Assembly: GCF_036010325.1 (NCBI RefSeq)
Contig: NZ_CP108549.1
Span: 4,216,001 to 4,280,000 of the forward strand
Reading direction: 5' to 3'
Length of the DNA stretch: 64,000 nucleotides
DNA from: Streptomyces sp. NBC_01210
Lineage (GTDB): Bacteria; Actinomycetota; Actinomycetes; Streptomycetales; Streptomycetaceae
Shown: piece by piece, positions 20,343 to 35,294 of the stretch
Position numbering within the stretch: position 1 is the first letter of the stretch
How the letters are laid out: each line of letters begins with the position of its first letter
Program-made: the position numbers and the translations under genes
Notes under the pieces: model-generated
Database searches by the model: none
What the model was told of the DNA's origin: nothing
Seen by the model: only the letters and a program-made list of their open reading frames with translations

Positions 20343-20433
20343 CAGCAAGGCCCCGAACCGTTCCGCCCTGGTATTCCCGGAAGCCTGCTGGGCCTCGTTC
20401 ATAGGCGAGTTGAAGGCCGCCGACCGGTCCTGA
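20218..20433 (+). CDS. DUF397 protein
   Basis: The 71-residue DUF397 protein begins at a GTG with GGAGGG nine bases upstream. It shows the family motifs AAWRSSSYSNQEGGDCVEVA, VPVRDSKAP and a final ACWASFIGELK. It is the small partner of the XRE/DUF5753 protein encoded by the overlapping upstream gene, which shares 125 bp with it in another frame. Confidence 0.88.
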   Translation: MQRLSRPDLNGAAWRSSSYSNQEGGDCVEVADGFPGVVPVRDSKAPNRSALVFPEACWASFIGELKAADRS

Positions 20434-20565
20434 GTCGACCAGGATTCGGTGCGGGCGTCGGCCTCCCGGAGCCTCCGGAACCTCGTGCGCGGGGGTCCGG
20501 CAGGCCACGAACTCCCCCAAAGAACCTGGGGTAAAGAACCACCTGCCCTCCTTCCCCTCCCACTC

Positions 20566-20583
20566 GTCACCCGGACGGGTGAC
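20566..20583 (+). terminator. Short hairpin after the DUF397 gene
   Basis: Arms GTCACCC and GGGTGAC with a GGAC loop form a 7-bp perfect stem about 130 bp after the DUF397 stop. It is a weak terminator candidate lying before the promoter-like sequence of the truncated helix-turn-helix gene. Confidence 0.35.
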
Positions 20584-20675
20584 TGGCTTGCGGGGGGAGT
20601 TGGCGGTTACGTTCGCCGCAACAACCTCAGGCATATGACGGCCCCCGGCCAGGACGGCAATCCTGATCGAGGGCC

Positions 20676-20945
20676 TCACCGATCAGGAAGTAGCACCTTC
20701 CCGATGGCTGAACCGCAGTCTAACGCGCCCCTGCGCGCCGACGCCGGAGCACCGACCTCCGGCGTGATCCACGTCCGTACGCGCCTCACCGCCGACTTCA
20801 CCGTCGATCCGGTTGTACCGGCCGCTGCGGGTGACATCTTCCAGCGCAGCCAGCGTCCGGGCAGGCGGGTGAAGCCGCTGATCATCCACGCCATCTGGGC
20901 GGCGGTGACGGCGATCTGGACAGCGGACAGCACGGACACGTGCAT
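20676..20945 (-). CDS. Short protein at the island edge, probably truncated
   Basis: A frame beginning MHVSVLSAVQIAVTAAQMAW has a good ribosome-binding site (GGAGG nine bases before the ATG) and lies 69 bp downstream of gpsA. The first 40 residues are hydrophobic/amphipathic and end RLPGRWLRWKM. Beyond about 20806 the frame reads antisense through the broken helix-turn-helix gene, so the 89-residue product is probably a chimera of a truncated island gene and host DNA. Function unknown. Confidence 0.4.
   Translation of the reverse strand: MHVSVLSAVQIAVTAAQMAWMISGFTRLPGRWLRWKMSPAAAGTTGSTVKSAVRRVRTWITPEVGAPASARRGALDCGSAIGKVLLPDR
20704..20805 (+). pseudogene. 5' fragment of a Streptomyces helix-turn-helix protein, cut by the island
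   Basis: Thirty-four codons starting at ATG 20704 encode MAEPQSNAPLRADAGAPTSG and then VIHVRTRLTADFTV. This matches the conserved start of a family of Streptomyces winged-helix proteins in which this stretch is followed by a VGNHLAQHRELS-like segment, according to my memory of the family. Here the match stops abruptly after the Val at 20803-20805 and unrelated sequence follows. The rest of the gene is absent from the window. This break marks the left edge of the accessory island. Confidence 0.65.
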
Positions 20946-21014
20946 GGCAGGAGCCTCCGGGTGGGGAGGGTGAAGGTGAGAGGTGGGCGGCCCCGCGAGG
21001 CGGGGCGCCGGGGG

Positions 21015-22028
21015 TCAGCGCTCGGGCTTGGGGGGCCGCTGCATCAGCGCGGCGGCGGCCTCGTCGAGGGTGACCTTCTCGTGCAGCAGGGCGGAGATCA
21101 CTTCCGTGATCGGCATCTCCACGCCGTGGGCGTGAGCCAGGGCGAGGATCGCCTCCGCGGACTTGACGCCCTCGGTGGTCTGCCGGGTGGCGGCCGTCGC
21201 CTGTTCGACGCTCAGGCCGTGACCGAGGTGGGTGCCGAAGGTGCGGTTGCGGGAGAGCGGGGAGGAGCAGGTGGCCACCAGGTCGCCCAGGCCGGCAAGG
21301 CCGGCGAGGGTGGCCGGGTGGGCGCCCATGGCCACAGCCAGCCGGGTGGTCTCCGCCAGCCCGCGGGTGGTGAGCATCGCCGCGGCGTTGTCGCCCAGGC
21401 CCATGCCCGAGGCGATGCCGACCGCCAGGGCGATGACGTTCTTCACCGCGCCGCCCAGCTCGCAGCCGATCACGTCGGTGCTGGTGTAGGGCCGGAAGTA
21501 GGGGGTGTGGCACGCCTGCTGGAAGCGGCGGGCGGCGTTCTCGTCGGGGCAGGCGATGGTGGCGGCGGCGGGCTGGCCGTTCATGATCTCAGCCGCGAGG
21601 TTCGGGCCCGACAGCACCGCGACCCGGTCCGCGCTCACGCTGGTCACCTCGGTGATGACCTGGCTCGCCCGTTCCCCGCTGCCGAGTTCGATGCCCTTCA
21701 TCAGCGACACGATCACGGTGTCGGGCCCGATGTGGGGCGCCCACGCGGCGAGGTTGGTCCGCAGGGACTGCGCGGGGATGGACAGCACCAGGTAGTCCGC
21801 GCCGTCCAGCGCGGCGGCCGGGTCGGTCGTGGCCGTCAGAGATGCGGGCAGCTCGACGTCCGGGAAGTAGCCGGGGTTGCGATGCGTCGCATTGATGGCG
21901 TGGGCGATCTCGTCCCGTCGGGCGTGCACGATGACGGGGCTGCCGGCGTCGGCCAGGATCTTGGCGACGGCGGTACCCCAGGACCCGGCCGAGAACACCG
22001 CCGCACGGGCGGAACGGTGCTGGCTCAC
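21015..22028 (-). CDS. gpsA: NAD(P)-dependent glycerol-3-phosphate dehydrogenase
   Basis: The 337-residue protein has the normal GpsA length. It has an N-terminal Rossmann motif (FSAGSWGTAVAKIL), the SLMKGIE and SGPNLAAEI blocks, the catalytic-Lys segment CELGGAVKNVIALAVGIASG, and the GDL/SRNRTFG substrate loop near residue 260. It interconverts dihydroxyacetone phosphate and sn-glycerol 3-phosphate. The start is a GTG with GAGAGGG upstream. Its island location suggests it is a pathway-dedicated paralogue supplying a glycerol-phosphate unit rather than the housekeeping lipid enzyme. Divergent from the dioxygenase gene. Confidence 0.88.
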   Translation of the reverse strand: MSQHRSARAAVFSAGSWGTAVAKILADAGSPVIVHARRDEIAHAINATHRNPGYFPDVELPASLTATTDPAAALDGADYLVLSIPAQSLRTNLAAWAPHIGPDTVIVSLMKGIELGSGERASQVITEVTSVSADRVAVLSGPNLAAEIMNGQPAAATIACPDENAARRFQQACHTPYFRPYTSTDVIGCELGGAVKNVIALAVGIASGMGLGDNAAAMLTTRGLAETTRLAVAMGAHPATLAGLAGLGDLVATCSSPLSRNRTFGTHLGHGLSVEQATAATRQTTEGVKSAEAILALAHAHGVEMPITEVISALLHEKVTLDEAAAALMQRPPKPER

Positions 22029-22223
22029 TGCGCGGCCCTCTCGCCGGACGCGGGCCCGTCACCGGGGCGGCGGTCGGGCCGGGACATCCTATCGGCCGCG
22101 CCGGACCCGGCCGGAACGTCCGCGGGGCGTCGCAGTCCCGGACACCGCCACCGGCGGCAAGCGGATCGTCGTCCGCCTGCCCCTGGTCCCCGCCGAGAAC
22201 CCCAAGAGAGAAGGAAGCCCCGC

Positions 22224-23144
22224 GTGTTCATCGACATCCCGAGCGGACTCGAAGCCGCTCTGATAGACCGTTCTCTCCCGACATGGGAACTGGACGGTTC
22301 GTTCCTGGCGACGTCCACCATGGAGCGGTACCGGACCGAGCTGAAGGGCACCCCGCAGTTCGAGGAGACCACCGCGACGCTGCGCCACGCGCTGACCGGA
22401 GAGGGCGGCGGATACGCCGTGCTGCGCCTGGGAAACCTCGCCAAGGCGCTGGGGACCGACGACGACCGGTTCCTGCGGCTGGCGACGGCCTTCGCGGCCG
22501 AGGTGGCGGTCCCCTTCTCGCCCTTCCCGCGGTGGCCCCTGTGGAAGGACATCGGGGTCAAGGTCGACAAGGACCCCGGCAAGTCCAGCGGCATCGGGTA
22601 CAACGCATTCCACATGGACCTGGTGAACGGAACCTTGCCCCCGGACTACACCACGCTCCTCTGCGTTCGCCCCGACCCGCTCGGCGGCGGCCCCAGCATC
22701 CTCTCCGACGCCCACGCGGCGGTGGCGCGGCTGTCGGAGGACAGCCGCGCCCTCCTGGCCGAGACGGCCTACAACTACGGGACCTTCTTCGACCTGCACG
22801 GCGTCGGCGAGGAGTACAAGCCGTTCCCGATCCTGGACGGCTCCGACCCGGGCGGGGGGTTCGTCCGCTTCACCGCCAAGATGCTGGAGAGGTCCCAGCT
22901 CGGCCAGGCGCACGCCGACGCCGCCCGGGAGCTCGCCGACGAGCTCGTCCGGGGGCAGGTCTCCTTCATGCTCCAGCCCGGGGACTACCTCATCGTGAAC
23001 CAGCGCCGCTTCCTGCACGGTCGGGAGGCACTCCACAGCGGTCAGGAGACCGTCCCGGTCGCCGACCGGCGGCTACTCCTCCAGTTGTTCCTCCGCGCGA
23101 GGGCCGGCGACAGCTCGGCCTGTGCCGGCCGACGGCACCGGTGA
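22224..23144 (+). CDS. TauD/clavaminate-synthase-like Fe(II)/2-oxoglutarate dioxygenase
   Basis: The 306-residue protein starts at a GTG behind GAGAAGGAAG. The iron-binding facial triad is visible as HMD (H130, D132) and a distal His (H265, RRFLHGRE), with ADRRLLLQLFLR supplying the 2-oxoglutarate-binding Arg. The spacing and the phrase RPDPLGGGPSILSDAHAAVARLSE resemble clavaminate synthase and amino-acid beta-hydroxylases. It likely hydroxylates or desaturates an island-specific intermediate. It shares a 195-bp divergent promoter region with gpsA. Confidence 0.87.
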   Translation: MFIDIPSGLEAALIDRSLPTWELDGSFLATSTMERYRTELKGTPQFEETTATLRHALTGEGGGYAVLRLGNLAKALGTDDDRFLRLATAFAAEVAVPFSPFPRWPLWKDIGVKVDKDPGKSSGIGYNAFHMDLVNGTLPPDYTTLLCVRPDPLGGGPSILSDAHAAVARLSEDSRALLAETAYNYGTFFDLHGVGEEYKPFPILDGSDPGGGFVRFTAKMLERSQLGQAHADAARELADELVRGQVSFMLQPGDYLIVNQRRFLHGREALHSGQETVPVADRRLLLQLFLRARAGDSSACAGRRHR

Positions 23145-23263
23145 CCCACCGAGTCCCGCCCCCGGGTCCAGCCCCCGAGCACGCGGCATGGCCACGGGGC
23201 GGGGCCCGGTCGGGCACCCCCGGAAACGGTTGCGCACCGGGCTCCTCGGGCCCGTGCGCGGAT

Positions 23264-24038
23264 CTAGATACGCGAGTTGCGCAGCGACTGCCACACAGCG
23301 CCGGCCAGCGCCCGCGTCGCCCGTGGGACCGACAGATGCTCGTGCTCGCGGTACAGGGCCCAGTTGTATTGCACGAGCGACAGTTTGTTGGAGGACAGCG
23401 ATCCCGCCTGGTGGGTCCTGTACACCGCAAGCGGCTCAGCCAGGCCCCGGGCGTCAGCGCCGTCCCGCATGATCGACAGCCAGAGAGCGTAGTCCTGGCG
23501 CTTGCGCAACTCCGGCATCAGCCTCGTGCCCAGGACATTGCGGTCGTACATGGCGGTGAGAGCACCGATGTGGTCCTGGACCAGCATCGCGCGGTAGTCC
23601 ACGAGCTCCCGCGCATGGACCACCCGCCCGTTCGGGACCCAGTCGGTGCTCTCGCCGTCGTAGGCGGCGTCCATCTTGAAGTACGAGGTGAACGTCAAAG
23701 GCGCAGTGGCCTCCACAGCGAAGGCGAGCTGCTTCTCGGTCTTCTCCGGAAGCCACATGTCGTCGCTGTCGAGAAAGGCGATGTAGTCCCCCGCGGGCCC
23801 GCTCGATCGCGAGGTTGCGGGCCCGGCCCGCACCGCCCCGTTCGGGTGCCGACTTCGGCAGGACGCGCTTGTCCTGCTCGGCGAACTCGCGGAGCAGGTC
23901 CATGGAGCCATCGGAGGACTGGTCGTCGGTGACCAGCAGCTCCAGGTCGCTGTGGGTCTGCGTGAGCACCGATCGGACGGCTGCGCCGAGGGTGGCCGCC
24001 GAGTTGTACACGGGCATCACGACAGACACCAGGGGCAC
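23264..24038 (-). pseudogene. Glycosyltransferase family 2, single-base frameshift
   Basis: From GTG 24038 (AAGGAG seven bases upstream) the frame encodes a GT-A start, VPLVSVVMPVYNSAATLGAA, with the nucleotide-binding DDQSSDGS. It goes out of frame at a run of five C (23788-23792). One frame over, the protein continues GDYIAFLDSDDMWLPEKTEK (the DxD-like motif) to a normal C-terminus. Removing one C restores an intact protein of about 257 residues. Whether this is a real mutation, a slippery-run phase variation or a sequence error cannot be decided here. The donor and acceptor are unknown. Confidence 0.8.
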
Positions 24039-24104
24039 AGCGCTTCTCCTTGCCAGACCAGGAACGACGGTCCATTCAAGCACCGCAATCGAGTAGGAGC
24101 TGCC

Positions 24105-25361
24105 ATGCAGATAGTTGTTGCTGGTCAGGGCTACGTAGGGCTTCCACTGGCCGTGCGCGCCGCAGAGGTGGGTCACCGTGTCGTCGGCTACGATGTGGAC
24201 CCGCACCGCGTCCAGCAGCTCGCCGCCGGCCAGTCCTACGTGGAGGACGTGGCCTCCTCGCGGCTGCGCGCAGTGCTGGACTCCGGGGTCTACTCCGCGA
24301 CCGCCGATGCTGCCGCGCTGGCCGGCTTCGACATCGCGGTGATCACCGTGCCGACCCCGCTGCGGGACGGCGTGCCCGACCTGACCTACATCGAATCCTG
24401 CGCCCGGACGCTGGGCGAGCACCTTCGCCCCGGTGCGACGGTGGTTCTGGAGTCCACGACCTATCCCGGCACCACCGAGGAACTGCTGCTTCCGATCCTG
24501 GAGAAGGCGTCGGGCCTCAAGGGCGGGGTGGACTTCCTGGCCGGATTCAGTCCTGAGCGTATCGCTCCGGGGAACAAGCGGTGGTCGTTCGACGGGACGC
24601 CGAAATTGGTCTCCGGAATCGACGCCAAATCACTCGATGTGATCAAGGGTTTCTACGACGGCATCTTTCAGACCACGGTTCCGGTGTCCGGGACCAAGGT
24701 CGCCGAGCTGGCCAAGCTGATCGAGAACGTCTTCCGGTTCGTCAACATCTCCATGGTCAACGAGATGGCGATGCTGGCCGCTTCCCTCGGCGTGAACATC
24801 TGGGAGGCGATCGACGCCGCCGCGACCAAGCCCTTCGGATTCACGCGGTTCACCCCAGGGCCGGGAGTCGGCGGGCACTGTCTGCCCGTCGACCCGTTGT
24901 TCCTCTCGTGGAAGGTCCAGCAGGAGCTTGGCGTCCCTTTCCGGTTCGTGGAACTCGCCGACGACGTGAACCGGCACATGCCCGACTACGTCGTCCGGCG
25001 TCTCGTGGAAGCACTTGACAAGCGCGGCATGCCCGTCAGCGGATCTCGGATTCTGCTGCTTGGCCTGACCTACAAGTACAACGCCACCGACCTTCGCAAT
25101 TCCCCTTCGGCACGTGTCGCCGAACTTCTCATCGACCTCGGCGCCGAGGTCCGCGGCGCCGAACCCAACATCCCGGACGGCGACAGCACCAAGCTGAACG
25201 TGCCTCGGGTCGATGCGAGCCCGGACGAGGTCGCAGCCGCTGATGCAGTGGTTCTTCTCATGGACCACCCGCGATTCGACCTCCCGATGATCGAGAAATG
25301 CGCAACCTATGTTCTCGACTGCCGAAACCGCCTTTCCAGGCCGAACGTCGAGACTCTTTAG
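24105..25361 (+). CDS. UDP-sugar 6-dehydrogenase (UDP-glucose/GlcNAc dehydrogenase family)
   Basis: The 418-residue protein starts MQIVVAGQGYVGLPLAVRAA (NAD-binding GxGxxG) behind TAGGAG. It has VPTPL and ESTTYPGTTEELLLP blocks, SPERIAPGNKRW, and the catalytic cysteine C259 in GPGVGGHCLPVDP. The C-terminal UDP-binding part follows (LGLTYKYNATDLRNSPS). The SPER and GGHCLPVDP wording is closer to WecC/TviB-type UDP-HexNAc dehydrogenases than to UDP-glucose dehydrogenases. It oxidises a nucleotide sugar to the uronic acid, presumably the donor for the neighbouring glycosyltransferases. First gene of a three-gene operon. Confidence 0.88.
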   Translation: MQIVVAGQGYVGLPLAVRAAEVGHRVVGYDVDPHRVQQLAAGQSYVEDVASSRLRAVLDSGVYSATADAAALAGFDIAVITVPTPLRDGVPDLTYIESCARTLGEHLRPGATVVLESTTYPGTTEELLLPILEKASGLKGGVDFLAGFSPERIAPGNKRWSFDGTPKLVSGIDAKSLDVIKGFYDGIFQTTVPVSGTKVAELAKLIENVFRFVNISMVNEMAMLAASLGVNIWEAIDAAATKPFGFTRFTPGPGVGGHCLPVDPLFLSWKVQQELGVPFRFVELADDVNRHMPDYVVRRLVEALDKRGMPVSGSRILLLGLTYKYNATDLRNSPSARVAELLIDLGAEVRGAEPNIPDGDSTKLNVPRVDASPDEVAAADAVVLLMDHPRFDLPMIEKCATYVLDCRNRLSRPNVETL

Positions 25362-25413
25362 CTTCTCGAAATCCCCCGGACCCGCCGCCAATCCTCCATC
25401 CCCGGGAGTTGTC

Positions 25414-26802
25414 TTGCGCGACGAATGGGAAAACGCCCACACGGACTACACCATGCCCGCGCAGCGTCAAATTCCTGCCTCGCTGGCCGAAAGTGAGAGC
25501 GACTGGCGCCACTACCTGGAGCGCTCAACCCCCAACGGCTGGCTGATACGGCATAACGCGATGACCGAAGCGCTCGTCAGCGGAAAGCCGATGTACCTGC
25601 TGCACACCACCAAGGACATCGACGCCATCCGCATCAGCCGGCAGTTGCACGTCTCCACCGGATGCCTGGTCGGAGCCCTGTACTGCTCGCCTCTCGTCAG
25701 TCAGCGTGAGGGACTGCGCCCCAACAACCTCGGCACCTACCTGATGCGGACGAAGCCTTCCACCACGCCCATGGTCTTCGAGGTCATCCCGGACGCCCCA
25801 ATCCGGCCCAAGGGCGTCGACTACCTGCATCTCGGTGCCATCCACCTGCGTACCTACGAGCGCTACCAGAGCTTCCTGACCCTGGCCGAGAACGACCAGC
25901 TCGACCACGCCGTGCTGACCGGGCTGCGTTCCGCGGCCGTGTTCCTCGACGCCGCCCTGCGCAACGCCGCCGGCCATGCCACTCCGGCACCCGAGTTCAT
26001 CGACCAGTTGTCCGACGCCGTGGCCCACGTGCCGTTCCTCGGCTACCTGTACTTCGAGGTTCTGTCCGAATACCTGATGCTCCACTCCGTTACTCCGGAG
26101 ACCAAGACCTATGCTCAGGCGGGAGAGCTGAACAACTGGCTCTACAAGCGACTCGCCTTCGCCGCCGTGGACGGCATGGACCAGTTGTTCGACCTGGCCC
26201 GTTTCAATCCGCGCTATCACCGGCTCGTCCAGCTCATCGAAGGCATGGAACCAGCTCTCGGCCAGGGAGTCACCGAGTACGTCCGGCGACGACTGTCCCA
26301 CCTGTTCGCCCGGACCGCGCTGCACCCGTCCCAGGATGCGGCGTCGGTCACCTTCCTGGGCGCTGATCTCAGCACGCTCCGGAACGTCGCGCCTGGACTG
26401 ATCGGGCAGATGATCTTCCGCGAGATCCGCTACATGCCGCGCTACCAGCAGCTCTACCACTGCTTCGAGAAAGCCAAGGCTCTTGAAGCATGGGACTACT
26501 GGAACAGCGAGGGAATACCCACACCCTTCAACGGAGTCCTCCCCAAGGGAGAGATAGGGATAAATCCCGTCTACCCCAGGTCGACAGTCAGAGCATGGAC
26601 GGCAGAACAGGACAGTAAGGGCTGCTTACATCCGGCCGAGGAGGTCTCGGCCGTCTTCACGCCGCACCTGGCGTCGTGGTGGGCGCCACCTCGTCAGCGC
26701 GAGATGCGGAACGCCACCGATGATTCACGAGTCGAGTTGGCCCTGGGAGCCCCATCTCCGATTCCCACCCGACGGTCATCCATTAATGGAGTTTCCGCAT
26801 GA
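25414..26802 (+). CDS. Unrecognised protein between sugar dehydrogenase and GT4
   Basis: The 462-residue protein starts at a TTG with GGGAG upstream, or alternatively at ATG 25453 without one. Notable phrases are PMYLLHTTKDIDAIRISRQL followed by HVSTGCLVGALYCSPL, an Asp/Pro-containing VIPDAPIRPKGVDYLHLGAI, and a long helical middle. The N-terminal H-T...I...L...S-x-G-C-L pattern faintly recalls ADP-ribosyl-/phosphotransferase-like folds, but I cannot name the family. A leucine at 26626-26628 is encoded by the rare TTA codon, implying bldA-dependent translation. The stop overlaps the GT4 start by 4 bp, so it very likely acts in the same pathway. Confidence 0.75.
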   Translation: MRDEWENAHTDYTMPAQRQIPASLAESESDWRHYLERSTPNGWLIRHNAMTEALVSGKPMYLLHTTKDIDAIRISRQLHVSTGCLVGALYCSPLVSQREGLRPNNLGTYLMRTKPSTTPMVFEVIPDAPIRPKGVDYLHLGAIHLRTYERYQSFLTLAENDQLDHAVLTGLRSAAVFLDAALRNAAGHATPAPEFIDQLSDAVAHVPFLGYLYFEVLSEYLMLHSVTPETKTYAQAGELNNWLYKRLAFAAVDGMDQLFDLARFNPRYHRLVQLIEGMEPALGQGVTEYVRRRLSHLFARTALHPSQDAASVTFLGADLSTLRNVAPGLIGQMIFREIRYMPRYQQLYHCFEKAKALEAWDYWNSEGIPTPFNGVLPKGEIGINPVYPRSTVRAWTAEQDSKGCLHPAEEVSAVFTPHLASWWAPPRQREMRNATDDSRVELALGAPSPIPTRRSSINGVSA

Positions 26803-27908
26803 CCACCAAACTCCTGAACATCTTGACCGGAATCAACCGCACCTCCGTGCCTTCGTCCGGGAGCATGATCCTCGTCAACGATCTCTACGGCGCGATGCCT
26901 GACACCCATACGACCTTCCTGGGCAGGGCGCCGGTCGATCAGGCTTGGAAGGCCGCGTTCGATCATCTGATCACCCTCTCCACGACGAAACGCCCTCACG
27001 GCCCCGACTTCGACCCCTACGTTGACGAGTTGACACGTGAGGTCGGTGCGCTCATCGAGAAGATCCAGCCGAACGCCATTCACGCCCAGTACCTCGGGTT
27101 CGCTCTCAGCCTGGCCTTCACCCGAACGGCCGGCAACATCCCGATCATCGCCATCGCCCACGGCCCCGACGTGATGGTGGCCGAGCGCAGCGCATCGGAA
27201 CGCGAGGCCATGAATGAAGTTGCTGCCGCAAGCGCCGCGATCGTCGCCCCGACCTCCGCCCTCGCCGACCGCATCGACCGTCTCACCGGACGCCGATTCA
27301 CCGATCGACTCACCGTCATCCCGTGGGGTATCCGTTTGAGCGATGCCCGGGTACGCGATCAACCGCCTACTGGAATCGGACCCCTGTCTCTGGTGCACGC
27401 CGGTCGCCTGGACGACAACAAATCCACGATCACCGCCGTCGAAGCCCTCGCATTGACCGATCAGCCGCACCACTTGACCGTGATCGGCAAAGGACCCCTA
27501 CGAGAGCATCTGGAACAGCGGGCTATCGAACGCGGGCTGCGGGACCGGGTCCATTTTGTTCCGTTCCTGCCCCGCGCCGAACTGTGGCGCCGTCTGCCGA
27601 ACTTCGACGCCTTCGTCTTCACGACCAGAGGTCTGGAGGCGTTCGGGCTTGTCCTCCTTGAGGCCCAAGCCCACGGACTCCCGGTTGCCTACTCCGAGCT
27701 TCCCGGTGTGAGGGAAATTCTCGGGAGCGCTGGCGTTGCCTACACTCCTGGCAACCCGCGCTCGCTGGCCGTGGCCCTAGACGAGCTGGGCCGGGACTTC
27801 CACCGGCGCAAGGCCCTGGCCAAGGTGGCTCTCAGCAACGCGCGCCGATACGACATCAGTACCACCGGCCGCCAGCTTCGCGAACTGACGCTCCGCGTTA
27901 CCTCCTGA
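26799..27908 (+). CDS. Glycosyltransferase family 4
   Basis: The 369-residue GT-B enzyme has an N-terminal acceptor domain, an AHGPDVMVAER hinge and SLVHAGRLDDNKSTITAVEA at the start of the C-terminal Rossmann domain. LTVIGKGPLREHLEQ and the E-x7-E donor motif in EAFGLVLLEAQAHGLPVAYS follow. It transfers a sugar with retention of configuration, likely the product of the upstream dehydrogenase. Coupled by ATGA overlap to the unknown gene, with GGAG 7 bases upstream of the ATG. Confidence 0.88.
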   Translation: MTTKLLNILTGINRTSVPSSGSMILVNDLYGAMPDTHTTFLGRAPVDQAWKAAFDHLITLSTTKRPHGPDFDPYVDELTREVGALIEKIQPNAIHAQYLGFALSLAFTRTAGNIPIIAIAHGPDVMVAERSASEREAMNEVAAASAAIVAPTSALADRIDRLTGRRFTDRLTVIPWGIRLSDARVRDQPPTGIGPLSLVHAGRLDDNKSTITAVEALALTDQPHHLTVIGKGPLREHLEQRAIERGLRDRVHFVPFLPRAELWRRLPNFDAFVFTTRGLEAFGLVLLEAQAHGLPVAYSELPGVREILGSAGVAYTPGNPRSLAVALDELGRDFHRRKALAKVALSNARRYDISTTGRQLRELTLRVTS

Positions 27909-27959
27909 CCCCGGTGTTTCGAGACCGGCCTCGGGACTGGTGAGGTCGCGCGTTCAGGT

Positions 27960-28212
27960 GTCGCGTATTCCGGCTTCGCCTTCGACCGCGACGGCTTGCT
28001 CGTCCTGCGCGGCGCCCTCGCCCTCGAGGTCCGCGACCGCGTAGGCGAGGCGCCGTTCGGCTCGTGGCTACCGACCGGACCTCGGGCCGGGACCGCTCGG
28101 TCGACAGCAAGGACGGCTTCCGCGCCGTCGTCGCCCTGGACGACGCCGAGCGCCGCCCCGGCTCGCTGACCGATCACCCGACCCTGACCGTACCCCCGCG
28201 AGAGACTGGGCC
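27960..28212 (+). pseudogene. Remnants of a phytanoyl-CoA dioxygenase-like gene
   Basis: Two short reading-frame pieces in different frames are visible. About 27971-28050 encodes FAFDRDGLLVLRGALALEVR, the classical PhyH N-terminal phrase. About 28058-28198 encodes VDSKDGFRAVVALDDAERRP and GSLTDHP, resembling the PhyH ALDDA...G.L...PGSH block but without the metal-binding histidines. Most of the gene is deleted. The pieces indicate that a second Fe/2-oxoglutarate oxygenase once lay here. Confidence 0.45.
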
Positions 28213-28401
28213 GTGACTTCCTCCACCACCTCGTACACGCCCGAAGAGCTGTTCGCGTCCACCGCGCCGTACTACGCCGCCCACCGGCCCCGCCACGCGC
28301 CCGAGTTCTACACCCTGCTCGGCGACCACTGCGGCCTCGACGGCACCCAGCGGGTGCTCGCCCTCGGCGCCGGCCCCGGCATCATCGCCACCCACCCCTG
28401 A
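28213..28401 (+). pseudogene. N-terminal fragment of a class I SAM-dependent methyltransferase
   Basis: A GTG-initiated 62-residue frame reads SYTPEELFASTAPYYAAHRP and then RVLALGAGPGIIATHP. This is the leader helix and motif I (LGAGPG) of a SAM methyltransferase, after which a stop removes the whole catalytic domain (about 200 residues). It is non-functional as an enzyme. Confidence 0.6.
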
Positions 28402-28483
28402 CGACACGCGCGTTGCCGCCTGGCCGACGACCTCGTCATGCGGCCAGGCCGCAGTGCAGTCTTGAGACACTCCCAGGCTGGAA

Positions 28484-29047
28484 CAGGTTGGGTGGACGAG
28501 CTGATCGCCGTGCACGAGGCGGCGCAGGGAGTTCCCGCACGAGCGGGTGCACTCCACCCTGCGGGTCTACCTCGCCAACGACCGCCTCGATGAGCAGGCG
28601 CCGGTGAACCGGCCCGGGCTCACGCCGGTCGCCAAGTGGATGGATCGCTGCTTCGACTGCTTCGCCCTCACCGTCGGCGCCTACATTCTGCCGACCTCCC
28701 TACTGAAGGAGCACGGGGCCTGGTACACCTGCGCAGCGTTCAACGTGCCGGAGAAGCTCGCGTTCGGAAACCTGCTGCGCGAGCGCGCCACCGACGTCAT
28801 CGCCCGCGCCAACTCCTCCGCCTACGTAGCCCGGGTGCGGGCCGGCGGCGGACTCAAGGCCCTCCACGACGTCGTTCCCCGCTCCTACACCGAGCAGACG
28901 ACGTGCACCAGCTTCTGCGACTCCTGCACACTGCTGATCGACCGTCACGACGCAGCCACCGGTGCCACGACCGGCCACCGTACCGATCCGGTCATCCCCG
29001 TCGCCTCCCTGCTGAGCCGCACGAACGCGGCGAGGGCTGTCCGGTGA
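28484..29047 (+). pseudogene. C-terminal fragment of a cysteine-rich enzyme, possibly radical SAM
   Basis: A 166-codon open frame (from a GTG at 28547) encodes DRCFDCFALTVGAYILPTSL and ends with TTCTSFCDSCTLLIDRH, a CxxxCxxC-type cluster that could bind iron-sulfur. Upstream, WVDELIAVHEAA is in another frame and joins across a frameshift near 28520 to RREFPHERVHSTLRVYLAND, so the gene is the tail of a larger broken one. The radical-SAM/SPASM assignment is a guess from cysteine spacing. The final TGA overlaps the ACP GTG. Confidence 0.45.
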
Positions 29048-29328
29048 CCGTGGAAACCGCAGGCGTGACCACCGAGGCGCTGGTGTGGATTACCGGGAAG
29101 CCCCGCGAGGCGTGTGCACGCCCCGAGGCCCTCCTGGAGCGGGACCTCGGAGTGGACAGCCTGACCCTGGTCGAACTGGTGGAGACCCTCCAAGACCGAC
29201 TCGCCATTACTGTCCCCGACGAGGTGACCGCCCGTGTCCGCATGGTCGCAGACTTGCAGGATGCAGTGGGCCGGCTCGTGGCCGCCGCAGCCTCCTCGTC
29301 CGCGACGACTTCAGGGACCAGTACATGA
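29044..29328 (+). CDS. Acyl carrier protein
   Basis: The 94-residue acidic helical protein carries the phosphopantetheine attachment motif DLGVDSLTLVELVETLQDRL with Ser39 and the following ITVPDEV loop. The GTG start overlaps the preceding TGA and the stop overlaps the FabV ATG, so ACP and FabV are translationally coupled. This indicates that an acyl chain is carried and reduced on this ACP. It has an Ala/Ser/Thr-rich tail of unknown role. Confidence 0.85.
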   Translation: MTVETAGVTTEALVWITGKPREACARPEALLERDLGVDSLTLVELVETLQDRLAITVPDEVTARVRMVADLQDAVGRLVAAAASSSATTSGTST

Positions 29329-30539
29329 GCGAACGCGTCATCTCCCCCCGCAACCGTGGCTTCCTCTTCCTCGACTCCCACCCGGCCGGCTGCGAACGCC
29401 TGGTGGAAGACATGTGGCAAGCCGTCCCCGCCCCCACGGCACCAGTTGCCCAGCGGGGCCCGGTGGCACTGATCATCGGGTCCTCTGCCGGATACGGGCT
29501 CGCCGCCACCATCGCCGGGCTCGCCCGCGCCGGGATCCGCGGCATCGGCGTCTGCTTCGAGAAGGCACCCACTGAGCGGCGCACCGGCACGGCCGGCTGG
29601 TACCGCACCGCCGCCACCGCCGAACTCGCCCGCCAGCACGGCCGGGAGATGGTCTTCCTCAACGGTGACGCCTTCTCCGACACGATGAAGAACCAGGTAG
29701 CCGACCTGATCGAAAAACGATACAGCGGCAGACTGGACTACCTGATCTACTCGGTGGCCGCTCCTCGCCGCACCGACCCGGACACCGGTGCCACGTACGC
29801 CTCTGTCCTCAAGCCGATCGGCGACGCCTACCGCACCAAAACGCTCGTCTTCGACGACCAGGGCACGCCGGAGGTACGGGAGGTTGAGACCGGGCCGGCC
29901 GAGGGCGACGACGTCGAGCAGACCATCGCCGTCATGGGCGGCGTCGACTGGGAGCGGTGGATCGACCACCTCGCCGACCGCGAGCTGCTCGCCGACGGCT
30001 TCACCACCGCCGCCCTGTCCTACATCGGCTCCTCACTGACCGCGGCGATCTACCGGCAGGGCACCATCGGAGCCGCCAAAGCACACCTTGAGCAGACGGC
30101 CCGCACCCTGAATGAGCGCCTGGACAAGCTGGTCGGCGGGCGGGCGGTGACCTCCGTCAACGGCGCGGCTGTCACCCAGTCCTCCACCGCTATCCCCGGC
30201 ATTGCCCTCTACGTCGGCCTGTTGCGCGGTGTCCTCGGCGACGCAATGGTGCCGCCGATCGCGCAGCTCACCGAAGTGTGGGACCAGCTCACCGGCGTTC
30301 GGCCTCCCGAACTGGACAACGAGGGACGCGTACGGCTCGACACCTGGGAGCTGGCCCCCGACGTTCAGGCAGCCGTCACCGAACGCTGGCAGCAAGTCAC
30401 CACCGACACCATCACCGAACTCGCCGAACTCGGCTGGTTCCAGGCTGAAGTCCGTCGCCTGTACGGCCTCTCCGTACCCAGCATCGACTACGCCGCTCCG
30501 GTCGAAACCCACATCCCCTGGCCCGACCCCACTCTCTGA
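29325..30539 (+). CDS. fabV: Enoyl-ACP reductase FabV
   Basis: The 404-residue protein matches the length of FabV, the large triclosan-insensitive enoyl reductase. It begins VISPRNRGFLFLDSHPAGCE, has the cofactor segment ALIIGSSAGYGLAATIAGLA and the YSVAAPRRTDP block. The active-site Y-x8-K is at Y243...K252 (AAIYRQGTIGAAK). It reduces the trans-2 double bond of acyl-ACP with NAD(P)H. Streptomyces primary metabolism normally uses FabI/InhA-type reductase, so a FabV beside an ACP suggests a dedicated acyl pathway in the island. Confidence 0.9.
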   Translation: MSERVISPRNRGFLFLDSHPAGCERLVEDMWQAVPAPTAPVAQRGPVALIIGSSAGYGLAATIAGLARAGIRGIGVCFEKAPTERRTGTAGWYRTAATAELARQHGREMVFLNGDAFSDTMKNQVADLIEKRYSGRLDYLIYSVAAPRRTDPDTGATYASVLKPIGDAYRTKTLVFDDQGTPEVREVETGPAEGDDVEQTIAVMGGVDWERWIDHLADRELLADGFTTAALSYIGSSLTAAIYRQGTIGAAKAHLEQTARTLNERLDKLVGGRAVTSVNGAAVTQSSTAIPGIALYVGLLRGVLGDAMVPPIAQLTEVWDQLTGVRPPELDNEGRVRLDTWELAPDVQAAVTERWQQVTTDTITELAELGWFQAEVRRLYGLSVPSIDYAAPVETHIPWPDPTL

Positions 30540-30558
30540 CGCCCCTTGGAGGAACGCC

Positions 30559-30912
30559 ATGCGCCTGCCGTCCAACGACACTCTCATCAGCTGGCAGCAG
30601 CAGCTCGAACAGGAACTGGCCCGCTTCGCGGACACCGAACTGCGCCAGGCCACCGGCCGGATCAGCGAGCCGGACGTTCACGATGCCGCCGCGGCCTACC
30701 TGACCCGCCCCAGCAAGCGGCTGCTCGGCATGGCGTTCCTCCACGCCGCCCACACCCTGGGCGTCGATGCCCACCGCGATGACTTGGTCGCCGTGGCGGC
30801 CGCGCTGGAGATCCGGCACGGTGCGATTCTTCTGCACGACGACATCGTCGACGGAGACACCCAGCGCGGCGGCCACCCCACCGCCCACCACACCCTGCGT
30901 GCCGCCGGACGC
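30559..30912 (+). pseudogene. Truncated polyprenyl diphosphate synthase
   Basis: From an ATG with TTGGAGGAA upstream, about 118 codons encode the N-terminal third of a trans-prenyl synthase. They include RPSKRLLGMAFLHAAHTLGV and the first Asp-rich motif LLHDDIVDGDTQRGGHPTA. After HHTLRAAGRR the sequence departs into a Pro/Arg-rich reading of antisense host DNA; the second Asp-rich motif and most of the fold are missing. The truncation marks the right edge of the island. Confidence 0.75.
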
Positions 30913-30979
30913 CGGCCGGCCCGGCAGCGTCAACGGGGCACAGGGAGCGCCCGTGCCGCCGGGCCCCGGGTCGCAACCG

Positions 30980-33900
30980 CTACGCGTCGAACCAGCGGTC
31001 CCGCGCCAGTTCCTCCGTGCGGGACGGGTCCTCCAGCAGTGCCGCCACCTCGAAGCGGCGCGGCCACTGGCCCGCCGCCCAGGCCAGGCCCGCCGCCACG
31101 CCCTCCAGGGTCGATGCGTGGATCACGCCGTCCTGGGTGCGCCGCCAGTCCAGTTCGACGCCGCCCGCCACCAGCTCCTCGTGCTCGACGTACGTCGCAG
31201 GGGTGCCGCTCCCGAGCAGGACGTGGACCGACTCCGGGACCTCGTGTTCCTCGCCCTCCGTGGTCACCTCCGCCGAGACCGCCTCGCCCAGGCGGCGGAC
31301 CTGGAACAGCTCCGCCAGCTCCGCCGCCCGTGACGGCGCCACCGGCAGCAGCGGCAGGCCCGCCGTCAGCGGGAGCAGATCCGGCGCGTCCGCCACCACC
31401 GCGTCCGAAGCGTCGACGACCCGTACCTCGCCGTCGACGACCGCCCGCAGCTCGTCAGGGAGCGTGACCTGATCCGGGTCGAGGTACGCCAACGCCGTGT
31501 ACAGGGCGTGGAGTTGCGCACCGGACACCTCGCGAGAGGGATCTGCGAGCCGGCCGAGCAGCTCCGCCGCCCCGCCCGGTTCTTCCAGCAGCGCGGCCAA
31601 CGACGTGCGCACGCCCAGCGCACGCAGCACCTGCACGTCCTCGAAGCCCGTCGCGTCCGCCGTGTCGTACAGACCGGCCAGCAGCGGATCGCCGCCCGCC
31701 GCCCGCAGACCCGCCGGGCGGCGCCCGTCCAGCACCGGATGGTCCCGCAGCCACCACGCCGTGTACGGGCGCACGGTCTCCGTCGTCCCGTCCGGGAGCA
31801 GGATCCGTACGGACTGGGTCAGCGCGTCCCGCAGCGGCGGCTGCGCCAGCAGCGCCAGCGCGCGGGGCCAGCAGTCGTCGTCCACCAGGTCCAGATCCCG
31901 TACGGCGACGATCTCCGTGGCGACCGGCGGCACCGGCGTCTGAGGCAGCCGGTCGAGCACGTCCTCGCACCACACGTCGACCGCGTCCAGCAGACCCGCG
32001 TCGTCGGGCTCGGCGAAGTCCCCTTCGCGGGGCTCAAGTTCATCGGGGTCGAGGACCACATCCGTGGCCCGCACGAGAGCGAAGTTCGCCAGCACACCGC
32101 ACGCGGCCAGCGGCTGCTCGCCCCACCGCTCGGCCAGCTCGCCGTCGCAGAGCGCCAGTTCGTCCTCGCGCATCACCGAGGCGAACGGGCTGCCCGGCAG
32201 CACCAGTTCACCCGCAGGAGCGAACTCGCCGTCCTCGTCCGGCAGCGCCAGCGCGCCCAGCCACGGCTCGTCCCCGGGCTCGATGCCCGCATCCCGTACC
32301 AGCGCCAGCACCGTCTCGGCGAGCTCCTCCGCGTCCAGCGCGGCACCGTCCCCGACTCCGTCGTACCAAACCTCGCCGGCGTCCAGCGAACCGGCCACCG
32401 CCGCTCGCACCTGCGGCGTCGTCAGCACGGCGCGCGGCGTCGCGGGCAGCGCGCCCAGCTTCTCCAGGAGCGGATGCGCGGCCTCCGGGTGGACCACCTT
32501 CAGCCCGAGCCGCGCGAGATGCGGCGGGGTCTCGGCCAGCGGCAGCAGCGTCTGGCGGGGCCCGATCGTCGTACGCCCGTCGGCAAGCGGCACCGGCAGC
32601 CCGGTCAGCCTGTCCGGGTCGACCCCGGCGAGGCTGTCGTACAGCCGCTGCCACCAGCCGGGCTCGCGCTCAAGACCCGCGAGCCGGTCGATCGCCTCGG
32701 TCAGCGGCACCCGCGCCACGCCGAGCGTGCGCAGCTCCACGCGGCGCTCGAGACCCGCGGGCAGCAGGCTCGGCAGCACCTCGGCCAGCACACGGACGGT
32801 ATCCGCGCCCGCGCCCTCCAGGACCTCCGCCTCGATCGGCCGCAGCCCGGCGGAGACATCCTCACGGTCCGGCAGCCCGGTGTCCCCGGACCACTCGCCG
32901 GACACATCGCGCGGCAGCGCCGCCTCCAGGAACGCCGTACGCGGCAGCAGCCGAAGGATCGCCTCCCGCAGCGCGCCGTCCAGCGCGCCCTTGCCCAGCG
33001 GACCGGGCACCAGGTCGATGGTGCCGACGGTCACCGGCTGCCAGCTGCCGAGGAGTTCGGCGTACGCCCCGGCCGCCTTCCGCACCAGGAAGTCGGTGAG
33101 CGGCCCGGGCGCCGGGTGGCGGCGGGTGGTGTCCAGCGGCAGCGAGGCGATCAGCAGCGCGGGCACGCCGAGAGGTTCGTCGGTGGGCGTGGGCGCGTGC
33201 ACCACAGGGGCGGTACGCGGCCGGGCCGGCGCGCCCTCCTCGTCCACGGGCACGGCCCAGGTGACGGTCCAGTACGGCCGCAGCCGCTCCTCGACGGGCC
33301 GGTCCGCGAGCAGCGCGGGCTCGATGGCGCCGCCGTGGCTCACCACCCGCCAGCGCCGGTCGCCCTGCACGCTGTCCTCGATGTGGACGTACGGGCCGTG
33401 CTCGGAGCGCCTCAACACCCGTACGCCGCCCGGGGTTTCGACGACGATCTCGGTCAGGCCGGTCAGCGTGAGCAGCAGCGCGTCGTCGATCCCGGCGAGC
33501 AGCCGCTCCACCAGATCGACCGCGGCCCCGTCCCGCAGCGGCAGCACGACGACCGTGTCGTACCCCTCGGGAGCCGTACCCTCGGCAGGCAGCGGCAGGC
33601 GCAGCAGCGGTACGTGTCCGTCGCGGCGGCGCAGCTCGTCGCCGAGCCCGGGGCTCGCCTTGGCCGCCTGCTGGGCCAGTTCCCTGGCCTCGGCCAGGGA
33701 CCAGCGCACGCCTCCGTGCCGGCCGATGACGGCGGGCTCGTCGCTCACCGCGAGGACGGCCGCGAAGCCGACGCCGAAGCGGCCGACGGCGGCCTCGTGG
33801 CCTTCGCGCTTGGCCGAGGCCCGCAGCGTGCTCAGCGATTCGACGCCGGTCGCGTCGAGCGGCGCGCCGGTGTTCGCGGCGGCGAGGACAGCGGGCTCGT

Positions 33901-34144
33901 CGCCCGTGCCGGGCCGCAGGGTCAGCCGGAGCCGGCCCGGCACGCGGGCGCGGGCCGCGGCGTCCGCGGCGTTCTGTGCGAGTTCGACGACAAGGCGGTC
34001 ACGGTAGCCGCCGAGGGCCAGATCCTCCTCGGCGTTGGCGTCCTCACGGAAGCGGGCGGGACTGGCCCCCCACGCGTCGAGCACCCCGCGCCGCAGCCGC
34101 GCCGTCCCGAACGGGTCCGCCCACTCGGTCGTCCTGACGCTCAC
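30980..34144 (-). CDS. Sacsin N-terminal ATP-binding-like (Hsp90-type ATPase) protein
   Basis: The 1054-residue protein starts at a GTG with GGAG seven bases upstream. Residues 40-150 form a GHKL/Hsp90-like nucleotide-binding domain: RLVVELAQNAADAAARARVP (N-box), ANTGAPLDATGVESLSTLRA and VGRFGVGFAAVLAVSDEP. The remaining 900 residues lack known domains and are Leu/Arg/Glu-rich. Large proteins of this class are conserved in actinomycetes; a chaperone-like role is inferred from the ATPase fold only. The 3' end abuts the island. Confidence 0.82.
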   Translation of the reverse strand: MSVRTTEWADPFGTARLRRGVLDAWGASPARFREDANAEEDLALGGYRDRLVVELAQNAADAAARARVPGRLRLTLRPGTGDEPAVLAAANTGAPLDATGVESLSTLRASAKREGHEAAVGRFGVGFAAVLAVSDEPAVIGRHGGVRWSLAEARELAQQAAKASPGLGDELRRRDGHVPLLRLPLPAEGTAPEGYDTVVVLPLRDGAAVDLVERLLAGIDDALLLTLTGLTEIVVETPGGVRVLRRSEHGPYVHIEDSVQGDRRWRVVSHGGAIEPALLADRPVEERLRPYWTVTWAVPVDEEGAPARPRTAPVVHAPTPTDEPLGVPALLIASLPLDTTRRHPAPGPLTDFLVRKAAGAYAELLGSWQPVTVGTIDLVPGPLGKGALDGALREAILRLLPRTAFLEAALPRDVSGEWSGDTGLPDREDVSAGLRPIEAEVLEGAGADTVRVLAEVLPSLLPAGLERRVELRTLGVARVPLTEAIDRLAGLEREPGWWQRLYDSLAGVDPDRLTGLPVPLADGRTTIGPRQTLLPLAETPPHLARLGLKVVHPEAAHPLLEKLGALPATPRAVLTTPQVRAAVAGSLDAGEVWYDGVGDGAALDAEELAETVLALVRDAGIEPGDEPWLGALALPDEDGEFAPAGELVLPGSPFASVMREDELALCDGELAERWGEQPLAACGVLANFALVRATDVVLDPDELEPREGDFAEPDDAGLLDAVDVWCEDVLDRLPQTPVPPVATEIVAVRDLDLVDDDCWPRALALLAQPPLRDALTQSVRILLPDGTTETVRPYTAWWLRDHPVLDGRRPAGLRAAGGDPLLAGLYDTADATGFEDVQVLRALGVRTSLAALLEEPGGAAELLGRLADPSREVSGAQLHALYTALAYLDPDQVTLPDELRAVVDGEVRVVDASDAVVADAPDLLPLTAGLPLLPVAPSRAAELAELFQVRRLGEAVSAEVTTEGEEHEVPESVHVLLGSGTPATYVEHEELVAGGVELDWRRTQDGVIHASTLEGVAAGLAWAAGQWPRRFEVAALLEDPSRTEELARDRWFDA

Positions 34145-34170
34145 GCTGTGACTCCGCTCTCTCCGGTTGA

Positions 34171-34228
34171 CCCGCAGTCTGCGTGCGGACCATGGGCGGC
34201 CCGCAGTCTGCGTGCGGACCATGGGCGG
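34171..34228. repeat. Perfect 29-bp tandem duplication upstream of the sacsin-like gene
   Basis: Two exact copies of a 29-bp unit (34171-34199 and 34200-34228) lie just upstream of the sacsin-like start. Each contains the palindrome CGCAGTCTGCG and a CCATGGG. It is either a recent duplication or a pair of regulatory boxes. Confidence 0.8.
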
Positions 34229-34349
34229 CCTGACCGTGACCCCACGTGCCGTGCACCCGCGGTCGACCCGCCCACTGCTTATGCGGCCGAAGGTACCGCG
34301 AACTGCGCGCTCAGCACTCCGCAGGAACCCGCGAGCTGTCGGAAGCGGA

Positions 34350-35294
34350 CTACGAGTGGCCGAGATCCTCCGACTCGCCGTCCGGCTCCGAGGAGACCGA
34401 ACCGCCTTCGCGGGCCGGACGCAGCGGGAACTCGTCCGTGCCCATCGAGTCGAAGACATGCGGCGCCGGCTGCGGCGGCTTCGGCATCACAGCCGCCTCG
34501 GAGTGCGCGCCGCAGCCGTACGACAAGGACACGACGCGCCCGTCCGCCGGTGAGAACTCATTCGCGCAGATACCGAAGGCCTGCCGCAGGGAGCCCGCCA
34601 GCGGAACGAGGAAACCGCAGCTCGCACAGGACGCGGGGGCCGCCTGCGCCATGGGGGTCTGCGCGCCGAAGGACTCGTCCCAGCGGTCCGCGGCGACGTG
34701 CAGCCCGTACCGGGACAGCACGCGGGCCCGGCGCATGCCGAGCTCCTCCGCGACCGACGCGATCGCACCGCGGCCGTTGGCGACGCTCTCGTCGATGGGC
34801 CTGCGCTCGGTGAGTTCCGCGTCCTCCGCCTCGACCCGCTCGACCAGGTCGTGGGACGGCGGCACGGTCTCGGCGACCACGGAATTCGGCGGGGGCACGT
34901 CCTCGCCCGTGAAGCCGGGCTCCAGCCGCAGATCCTCCGCCTCGGTGGGCAGCAGATCGCCGGGGCCCAGGTCGCCGGGCCGCAGCCGCTCGCTCCACGG
35001 CACCCACTCGGGCGCGAGCAGCGAATCGGGGCCGGGGAGCAGGACGGTTTCGTCCAGCGTGACGATCTTGGCGCGGGAGGCCCGCGTGACGGTCACCGCC
35101 CAGCGCCAGCCGCGGTATCCGAGTTCCTTGGCCTCGAAGAAGTGCGTGACCACACGGTCACCCTCCGCGACCAGGGATACATGCTCGCCGACCACCCCAG
35201 GGGCCGCGGCCTCTTCGGCCGCCGACCGGGCAAGGTCTACCGCCTCGGCGCACAGGCGGTCAGGGGTCCGGCTTCGCGTCGTCGCTGCACTCAC
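34350..35294 (-). CDS. DUF3027 protein
   Basis: The 314-residue protein has the DUF3027 core VGEHVSLVAEGDRVVTHFFE, ELGYRGWRWAVTVTRASRAK, DETVLLPGPDSLLAPEWVPW and a CASCGFLVPLAGSLR zinc-like pair near the C-terminus. This family is restricted to actinobacteria and usually lies beside the same neighbours (cold-shock gene, MFS gene, futalosine genes). Function unknown. The GTG at 35294 is chosen from codon bias and family length. Confidence 0.82.
   Translation of the reverse strand: MSAATTRSRTPDRLCAEAVDLARSAAEEAAAPGVVGEHVSLVAEGDRVVTHFFEAKELGYRGWRWAVTVTRASRAKIVTLDETVLLPGPDSLLAPEWVPWSERLRPGDLGPGDLLPTEAEDLRLEPGFTGEDVPPPNSVVAETVPPSHDLVERVEAEDAELTERRPIDESVANGRGAIASVAEELGMRRARVLSRYGLHVAADRWDESFGAQTPMAQAAPASCASCGFLVPLAGSLRQAFGICANEFSPADGRVVSLSYGCGAHSEAAVMPKPPQPAPHVFDSMGTDEFPLRPAREGGSVSSEPDGESEDLGHS

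Follow-up and report, generated by a model that had tools for sequence, protein, structure and literature searches.

A probable composite insertion scar of three foreign pieces in the chromosome of Streptomyces sp. NBC_01210

The described systems closest to the locus analyzed here are the TfuA-YcaO gene sets of actinobacteria, known for thioamidated ribosomally synthesized and post-translationally modified peptides (PMC6511847), the FabV enoyl-acyl carrier protein reductases (PMC9260719), teichuronic acid-type genes, and the integrative conjugative elements and transposons of Streptomyces. The locus is an interval of about 10 kb within a 64-kb stretch of Streptomyces sp. NBC_01210 (the window; 4.216-4.280 Mb of a 9.08 Mb contig), in which a cut helix-turn-helix gene is followed by gpsA, a five-gene sugar cassette, and an acyl carrier protein (ACP) gene paired with fabV, all among broken genes. 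W followed by a number denotes a position within the window, G numbers the genus genomes compared, and L numbers the loci or records compared.

The TfuA-YcaO sets resemble the linear plasmid L011, on which TfuA, YcaO and methyltransferase genes precede gpsA, but the window keeps gpsA only, without TfuA or YcaO. In the main text of PMC6511847, glycerol appears only under culture conditions and a methyltransferase is not mentioned. The FabV of the window shares a family match above the NF010177 cut-off and the Yx8K catalytic spacing with the enzymes treated in PMC9260719; as a difference, it stands here with an ACP and with remnants of a radical S-adenosylmethionine (SAM) enzyme and a prenyl synthase. 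The C-terminal piece of a family 2 glycosyltransferase (GT2) matches TuaG of the teichuronic acid-type genes, and the sugar dehydrogenase falls in the nucleotide-sugar dehydrogenase subfamily, but the scores lie far under the TuaG and TuaD cut-offs (133 vs 400 and 120 vs 700). Such gene sets are not known to have a counterpart of the TauD dioxygenase or of the uncharacterised protein, here called UNK, that accompany these genes in the window. With integrative elements and transposons the locus has in common that foreign DNA lies within a chromosome; it differs in that the parts of the window scanned yielded neither an integrase or transposase nor a tRNA site or long terminal repeat.

Comparison with relatives indicated that the interval is most probably a composite insertion scar of three foreign pieces, not one pathway (rough probability 0.86). 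Three different sets of relatives were observed directly, together with the positions where they change: the best relative switches at 20801-20805, 22123-22135, 28490-28492, and 30899-30977. The pieces match their relatives over 1.3-6.4 kb, which argues against chance. The pieces and their borders are:

20704..20805, plus strand: first 34 codons of the host helix-turn-helix gene (open reading frame (ORF) 20449-20973), matched by the intact homologues L082 and L083 only to W20804/20809
20801..22135, minus strand: segment A, a sheared plasmid-type fragment with gpsA (L010 matches W20834-22119 and W20801-20837; L011 matches W20834-22135 and W20801-20830)
22123..28490, plus strand: segment B+C, collinear as one piece with Streptomyces inhibens L116 at 94%
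28492..30899, plus strand: segment D, the 3' portion of an operon for a radical SAM enzyme, ACP, FabV and prenyl synthase (G249, L076 9433-11830; G387, L077 from W28492)
30977..34459, minus strand: right-flank gene with a weak sacsin-domain match below cut-off, found across the genus

A sequence-only reading had described the interval as a foreign mosaic island that cut a host regulator gene after codon 34, and both statements were borne out. UNK was present in 19 and FabV in 30 (two of them weak) of 199 genus genomes, the genome studied here included in these counts, and the stretch 27900-30990 was matched end to end only in its own genome among 392 genus genomes (own included, two candidates scored per genome), so the island is not vertically conserved. 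The helix-turn-helix gene starts at ATG 20704, and the DNA match to its intact homologues stops at W20804 (L082, G026:C7) and W20809 (L083, G022:C61). Because the frames of both homologues continue beyond the point where the match ends, the cut after codon 34 (20805) is real and is not the natural end of the gene; the residual frame in the window is a chimera that stops at 20973.

In the flank searches, for which a handful of candidates was scored per genome, the left flank was matched at length in few genomes among the matches listed, while the right-flank gene was matched genus-wide. The empty site that the same reading had called for was found in part. In G030, the only such case in 60 other genomes searched for both flanks, the flanks lie 676 bp apart, the left ending at W20539 and the right beginning at W30977. 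Since the helix-turn-helix gene has no match inside this 676-bp gap, the site is near-empty, not perfect.

The parental sequences overlap at the first two joins, by about 5 bases at the one and by up to 13, not all of them matching, at the other. Four pairs of junction zones, the outer pair among them, were compared and had no 11-mer in common; shorter duplications are possible. No integrase or transposase family was found among the ORFs scanned in 21015-30930 (not all small ORFs and debris were scanned), the scanned sequence showed no long terminal repeat, and no tRNA lies in the window. Streptomyces have end-joining enzymes. Since the pieces end within genes and the scanned part yielded neither an integrase or transposase nor a terminal repeat, they may have been joined by end joining of captured DNA, at this site or beforehand on a plasmid. 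In the composite scar, three pieces with different histories sit between the cut helix-turn-helix gene and the conserved sacsin-like gene: a gpsA fragment of a type that stands beside YcaO and methyltransferase genes in linear plasmids, a 6.4-kb stretch in which a five-gene glycosylation cassette is accompanied by older debris, and the 3' portion of the radical SAM-ACP-FabV-prenyl synthase operon. An assembly artefact that joined unrelated contigs would also change the best relative abruptly within 10 kb, and the A/B and C/D junctions were seen in no other record. Such an artefact is nevertheless highly improbable, as the genome is in 2 contigs and is 100% complete with 0.37% contamination, and independent records (G024, L009, L128, L116) show the internal B+C junctions as well.

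Segment A consists of one whole gene between two gene ends:

20801..20945, minus strand: 5' portion of a small gene that follows gpsA; about 138 bp are missing from its interior by comparison with L010 and L011
21015..22028, minus strand: gpsA, open frame, 337 aa (NF000942, E 9.4e-136, 452 bits vs 257)
22029..22135, minus strand: about the last 30 codons of the gene preceding gpsA in L010 and L011 (a methyltransferase, or a YcaO-methyltransferase fusion), by the same comparison

The interval 20400-31000 was matched, at least in part, by 41 records of the plasmid collection. Fourteen of the 20 listed match the gpsA part, and the match there also lies over a neighbour gene named as a methyltransferase (8/14) or as YcaO-like (2/14). 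On the Streptomyces linear plasmids L010 and L011, gpsA adjoins YcaO, methyltransferase and, in L011 only, TfuA genes; in L010 it is a YcaO-methyltransferase fusion that precedes gpsA. No TfuA or YcaO gene lies in segment A, which holds only gpsA and gene ends. A limited literature search found no description of the gpsA-YcaO-methyltransferase plasmid neighbourhood. The ratio of nonsynonymous to synonymous substitution rates (dN/dS) of gpsA against L010 was 0.24, and the next-best match to segment A in its own genome was 76% over 298 bases at 6.64 Mb.

The longest piece, segment B+C, contains the sugar cassette and the debris that follows it:

22123..22192, plus strand: 3' end of a HATPase_c_2 gene; the same gene precedes the cassette in L116 and L133
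22193..27933, plus strand: five-gene travelling cassette (TauD, GT2, nucleotide-sugar dehydrogenase, UNK, GT4) with edges shared across loci
22224..23144, plus strand: TauD/TfdA-family 2-oxoglutarate dioxygenase, open frame (PF02668, E 4.6e-19; HxD motif)
23264..24047, minus strand: GT2 glycosyltransferase in two overlapping frames, a single frame in the plasmid relatives L007 and L008
24105..25361, plus strand: nucleotide-sugar dehydrogenase, open frame (TIGR03026, E 6.8e-115; GGHC)
25414..26802, plus strand: UNK, conserved uncharacterised protein, 462 aa, open gene (115 relatives)
26799..27908, plus strand: family 4 glycosyltransferase (GT4), open frame (PF00534, E 2.4e-23)
27977..28490, plus strand: segment C, remains of two genes, PhyH and a methyltransferase-like one (this second name given by eye only)

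The S. inhibens locus is collinear with 22123-28490 throughout, debris included, so B and C were probably acquired together. The motifs HxD (TauD) and GGHC (dehydrogenase), like DSL in the ACP of segment D, are taken here as family motifs, and the motif expected of GT4 is present. Judging from the protein families, the dehydrogenase, GT4 and GT2 of segment B would supply a uronate-type sugar donor and carry out its transfer, with an oxygenase and UNK encoded beside them; since GT2 is broken in this strain, its cassette is probably impaired.

The cassette recurs as a unit. The span 22193-27933, or most of it, was common to seven plasmid or chromosome loci, with the left edge at W22193-22222 in six and the right edge at W27904-27933 in all seven. 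The flanks of these loci were mostly unrelated, L007/L008 and L007/L084 having pieces in common further out. A genome-wide scan returned 115 UNK relatives, and 80 loci were kept. Twenty-nine of the 80 have all five genes in the same order and orientation, including two Nonomuraea records. Not all of these are intact: matches are split in L137, L139 and L172, the GT4 match is short in L138, UNK contains a stop in L121 and L124, and L132 is cut by a contig end. Flanks of up to 2 kb were compared for 27 of the 29 (L137 and L172 dropped), and at least 200 bp were shared by 5 of 351 pairs on the left and 8 of 351 on the right; on each side one of these pairs consists of the two ends of one S. lavendulae chromosome. 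In this strain, S. lavendulae CCM 3239 (NZ_CP024985.1), the cassette stands at both chromosome ends (L136, 3353-20639; L147, 8671073-8688359). Plasmid copies of the cassette are also decaying: L008 has a split GT4, and L009 is partial with an IS4 insertion.

Linear plasmids carry the two gpsA regions read (L010, L011) and three copies of segment B (L007-L009), and the segments of the window adjoin without recognisable host DNA between them. Both observations would fit one mobile unit, A+B+C+D, that had been put together beforehand at another place, such as a linear plasmid, entered the chromosome once and then decayed. However, none of the 20 plasmid records listed, of 41, covers both A and B, the C/D junction is spanned by no other genome of the 392, and most cassette copies from the UNK-relative scan were found in genome contigs, which may or may not be plasmids. 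A single entry of this kind is a serious possibility that falls somewhat short of an even chance.

The debris of segment C lies within 27977-28389. Its PhyH part is a gene with an internal deletion, PhyH being intact in L079 (PF05721, E 9.6e-15), and the methyltransferase-like frame is short and has no Pfam match. Between 28229-28490 and G024:C70:4538-4799 the identity is 98%, higher than that between any other part of the island and its relatives, which suggests a recent common source for the two. Just 3' of GT4, at 27919-27976, a stretch of 45-60 bases has matches of 85-93% in many genus genomes and resembles a dispersed repeat.

Segment D begins and ends within genes:

28547..29047, plus strand: C-terminal remnant of a radical SAM enzyme, six cysteines (81% to residues 224-391 of the G249 query)
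29044..29328, plus strand (scanned as 29047-29328): ACP, GTG start, DSL serine (PF00550, E 8.3e-07)
29325..30539, plus strand: fabV enoyl-ACP reductase, open frame (PF12241, E 9.2e-82; above the NF010177 cut-off; Yx8K)
30559..30899, plus strand: prenyl diphosphate synthase, only the first ~113 residues

Only one genome among the 391 others, G249 (L076), matched W28495-30899 end to end, at 77%. In its complete operon, a radical SAM gene (CNDTCVTC) lies upstream, followed by ACP, FabV, and a full prenyl synthase. The FabV of the window scores 440.5 bits against the NF010177 cut-off of 403 and falls below that of the narrower equivalog NF043048 (361 vs 400), and its Y243-K252 has the Yx8K spacing. 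The radical SAM assignment draws on the complete relatives, which have CxxxCxxC as CNDTCVTC (G249) and CNDTCKSC (G387); this N-terminal motif is not in the window remnant, which keeps the C-terminal part only. The G249 protein matched PF04055 at E 3.5e-05, but at 24.5 bits, below the 29.5 cut-off, and MoaA and other radical SAM profiles matched it weakly, below their cut-offs. A search of the 392 genus genomes gave matches at E ≤ 0.001 in 68: the remnant itself, G249 (the query), G387 (59%), and 65 weak domain-level matches at 35 bits or less. At E 1e-30, only the remnant was matched in 345 genomes of the class. In G387 (L077:8793-11795) the radical SAM-ACP pair is followed by a FabI gene (NF005908, 329 bits vs 299) in place of FabV.

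The families point to an acyl chain bound to the ACP as the probable substrate of the radical SAM enzyme, a chain that FabV would reduce. Of the genes of segment D, only ACP and FabV are whole in the window. The dN/dS values of FabV, ACP, the radical SAM remnant and the prenyl stub against G249 were 0.18-0.28, and these ratios mostly mirror the time before truncation. FabV is not the sole enoyl reductase of its genome, since a FabI gene lies at 2.168 Mb (NF005908, 423 bits vs 299); of the island's parts, it is the one most likely still useful alone, as an extra enoyl reductase beside FabI.

Much of the gene inventory of the sequence-only reading agrees with these results. GpsA, TauD, the sugar dehydrogenase, GT4, ACP and FabV have open frames with family matches, GT2 lies in two overlapping frames, the prenyl synthase keeps ~113 residues, and whole genes are interspersed with broken ones up to about 30.9 kb. 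Missing from it were the identities of 28547-29047 (radical SAM remnant) and 27977-28389 (PhyH and methyltransferase-like debris), and the open gene 25414-26802, UNK. Its proposal of a single glycolipid or phosphoglycolipid pathway did not survive the comparison. The enzyme types can be combined on paper, but GpsA, the uronate and glycosyltransferase set, and the ACP-FabV-prenyl synthase set come from three donor contexts, each segment having other neighbours elsewhere; their combination was not seen in any other record examined, and three of the genes (GT2, radical SAM, prenyl synthase) are broken. One pathway is therefore very unlikely. Of the homologous loci that the reading had also proposed to look for, S. 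inhibens L116 is collinear with B+C and G249 has the whole operon of D, and in no other record examined were all segments seen together. A gene-dense "biosynthetic island" can thus be three sheared donors, which matters for cluster prediction.

Lone fabV genes in other genomes showed what may remain of an operon like that of segment D. DNA of at least 1.1 kb matching fabV at 73% or more was found in 45 of the 391 other genus genomes (lower-identity ones left out; two candidates scored per genome), and the 300 bases before fabV were read in 23 of the 45, for the most part those with the best scores. In G249 these bases belong to a complete ACP that has DSL. With G249 set apart, an ACP stub was found upstream in 15 of 22 at E ≤ 1e-5 and in 19 of 22 at E ≤ 1e-3, so the lone fabV descends from an ACP-fabV pair. 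The attachment serine was outside the alignment, gapped or replaced in 14 of the 15 stubs; in G064 it aligns (HSL). As controls, a reversed ACP matched 0/23 at either threshold, and each of ten shuffled ACPs 0/23 at E ≤ 1e-5. No internal stops were present in the aligned FabV of any of the 23, and dN/dS among the lone FabV had a median of 0.26 and a maximum of 0.42 (231 pairs of 22 genomes). In several streptomycetes fabV and the ACP stub stand with similar edges in unrelated neighbourhoods (L195-L202, e.g. L195:9524-10901), and G015 carries two FabV copies. The unit shared by these eight larger loci is 1.34-1.52 kb long, mostly ~1.38 kb, and mostly ends about 10 bases 3' of the stop codon. 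Identities were 86-96% among the seven loci without L199 and 76-78% with it. In 27 of 28 pairs there was no second shared stretch of 300 bp, the exception being L196/L202, which are 97% identical with flanks in common. Of the loci scanned, two with fabV and two with the cassette, none had inverted repeats at the unit ends (for the cassettes, among the five longest pairs only).

It is conceivable, though on balance rather doubtful, that streptomycetes carry tight-edged travelling units without a recombinase of their own, the cassette and the 1.38 kb ACP stub-fabV unit among them. The fabV unit would then be what survives of a rare and so far undescribed pathway of radical SAM enzyme, ACP, enoyl reductase and prenyl synthase, retained on its own to bypass the normal enoyl reductase, and the window would have caught that decay midway.

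Several observations weigh against the composite scar as drawn here. The overlaps at the joins are short and approximate, and 78 nt at 30899-30977 have no assignment. The empty site is imperfect, since G030 also has no helix-turn-helix gene, and in the other 10 genomes whose DNA matched the left flank at E ≤ 1e-30, left and right flank are on separate contigs or at least 1 Mb apart. A chromosomal donor of segment A is possible, because the searches covered the plasmid collection and the genome's own chromosome only. TauD, the dehydrogenase (UGD), UNK and GT4 gave dN/dS of 0.19-0.43 against four relatives, which fits recent function rather than decay; these values indicate that the cassette proteins were constrained until recently. 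At the looser E ≤ 1e-3, shuffled ACPs also reached up to 3/23. Either one earlier assembly or serial insertions may lie behind the scar.

A composite transfer scar is ordinary in kind, and it is its parts that are apparently undescribed, a limited literature search having found no descriptions of them. These are the radical SAM-ACP-FabV-prenyl synthase operon, the conserved UNK family found with sugar genes, and the lone fabV genes that have the stub of a lost ACP and stand in unrelated neighbourhoods.

UNK itself had no match in Pfam, NCBIfam, PHROGs or PADLOC. Five of its 19 genus genomes carry it at 79% or more. The structure model was confident (pLDDT, predicted local distance difference test, 88.4), and neither the whole model nor residues 36-154 matched the PDB at E ≤ 0.001. 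An ADP-ribosyltransferase/KptA-like fold was considered: hhalign against the KptA profile aligned 21 columns (probability 1.6%, E 0.031), and nothing aligned with DarT. The UNK relatives L143, L150, L155, L161 and L175 stand in other contexts, and in three of these five loci (L150, L161, L175) the relative is adjoined by a gene of ~250 aa, without a Pfam or NCBIfam match in its L161 copy, that is HD phosphohydrolase-like by motif.

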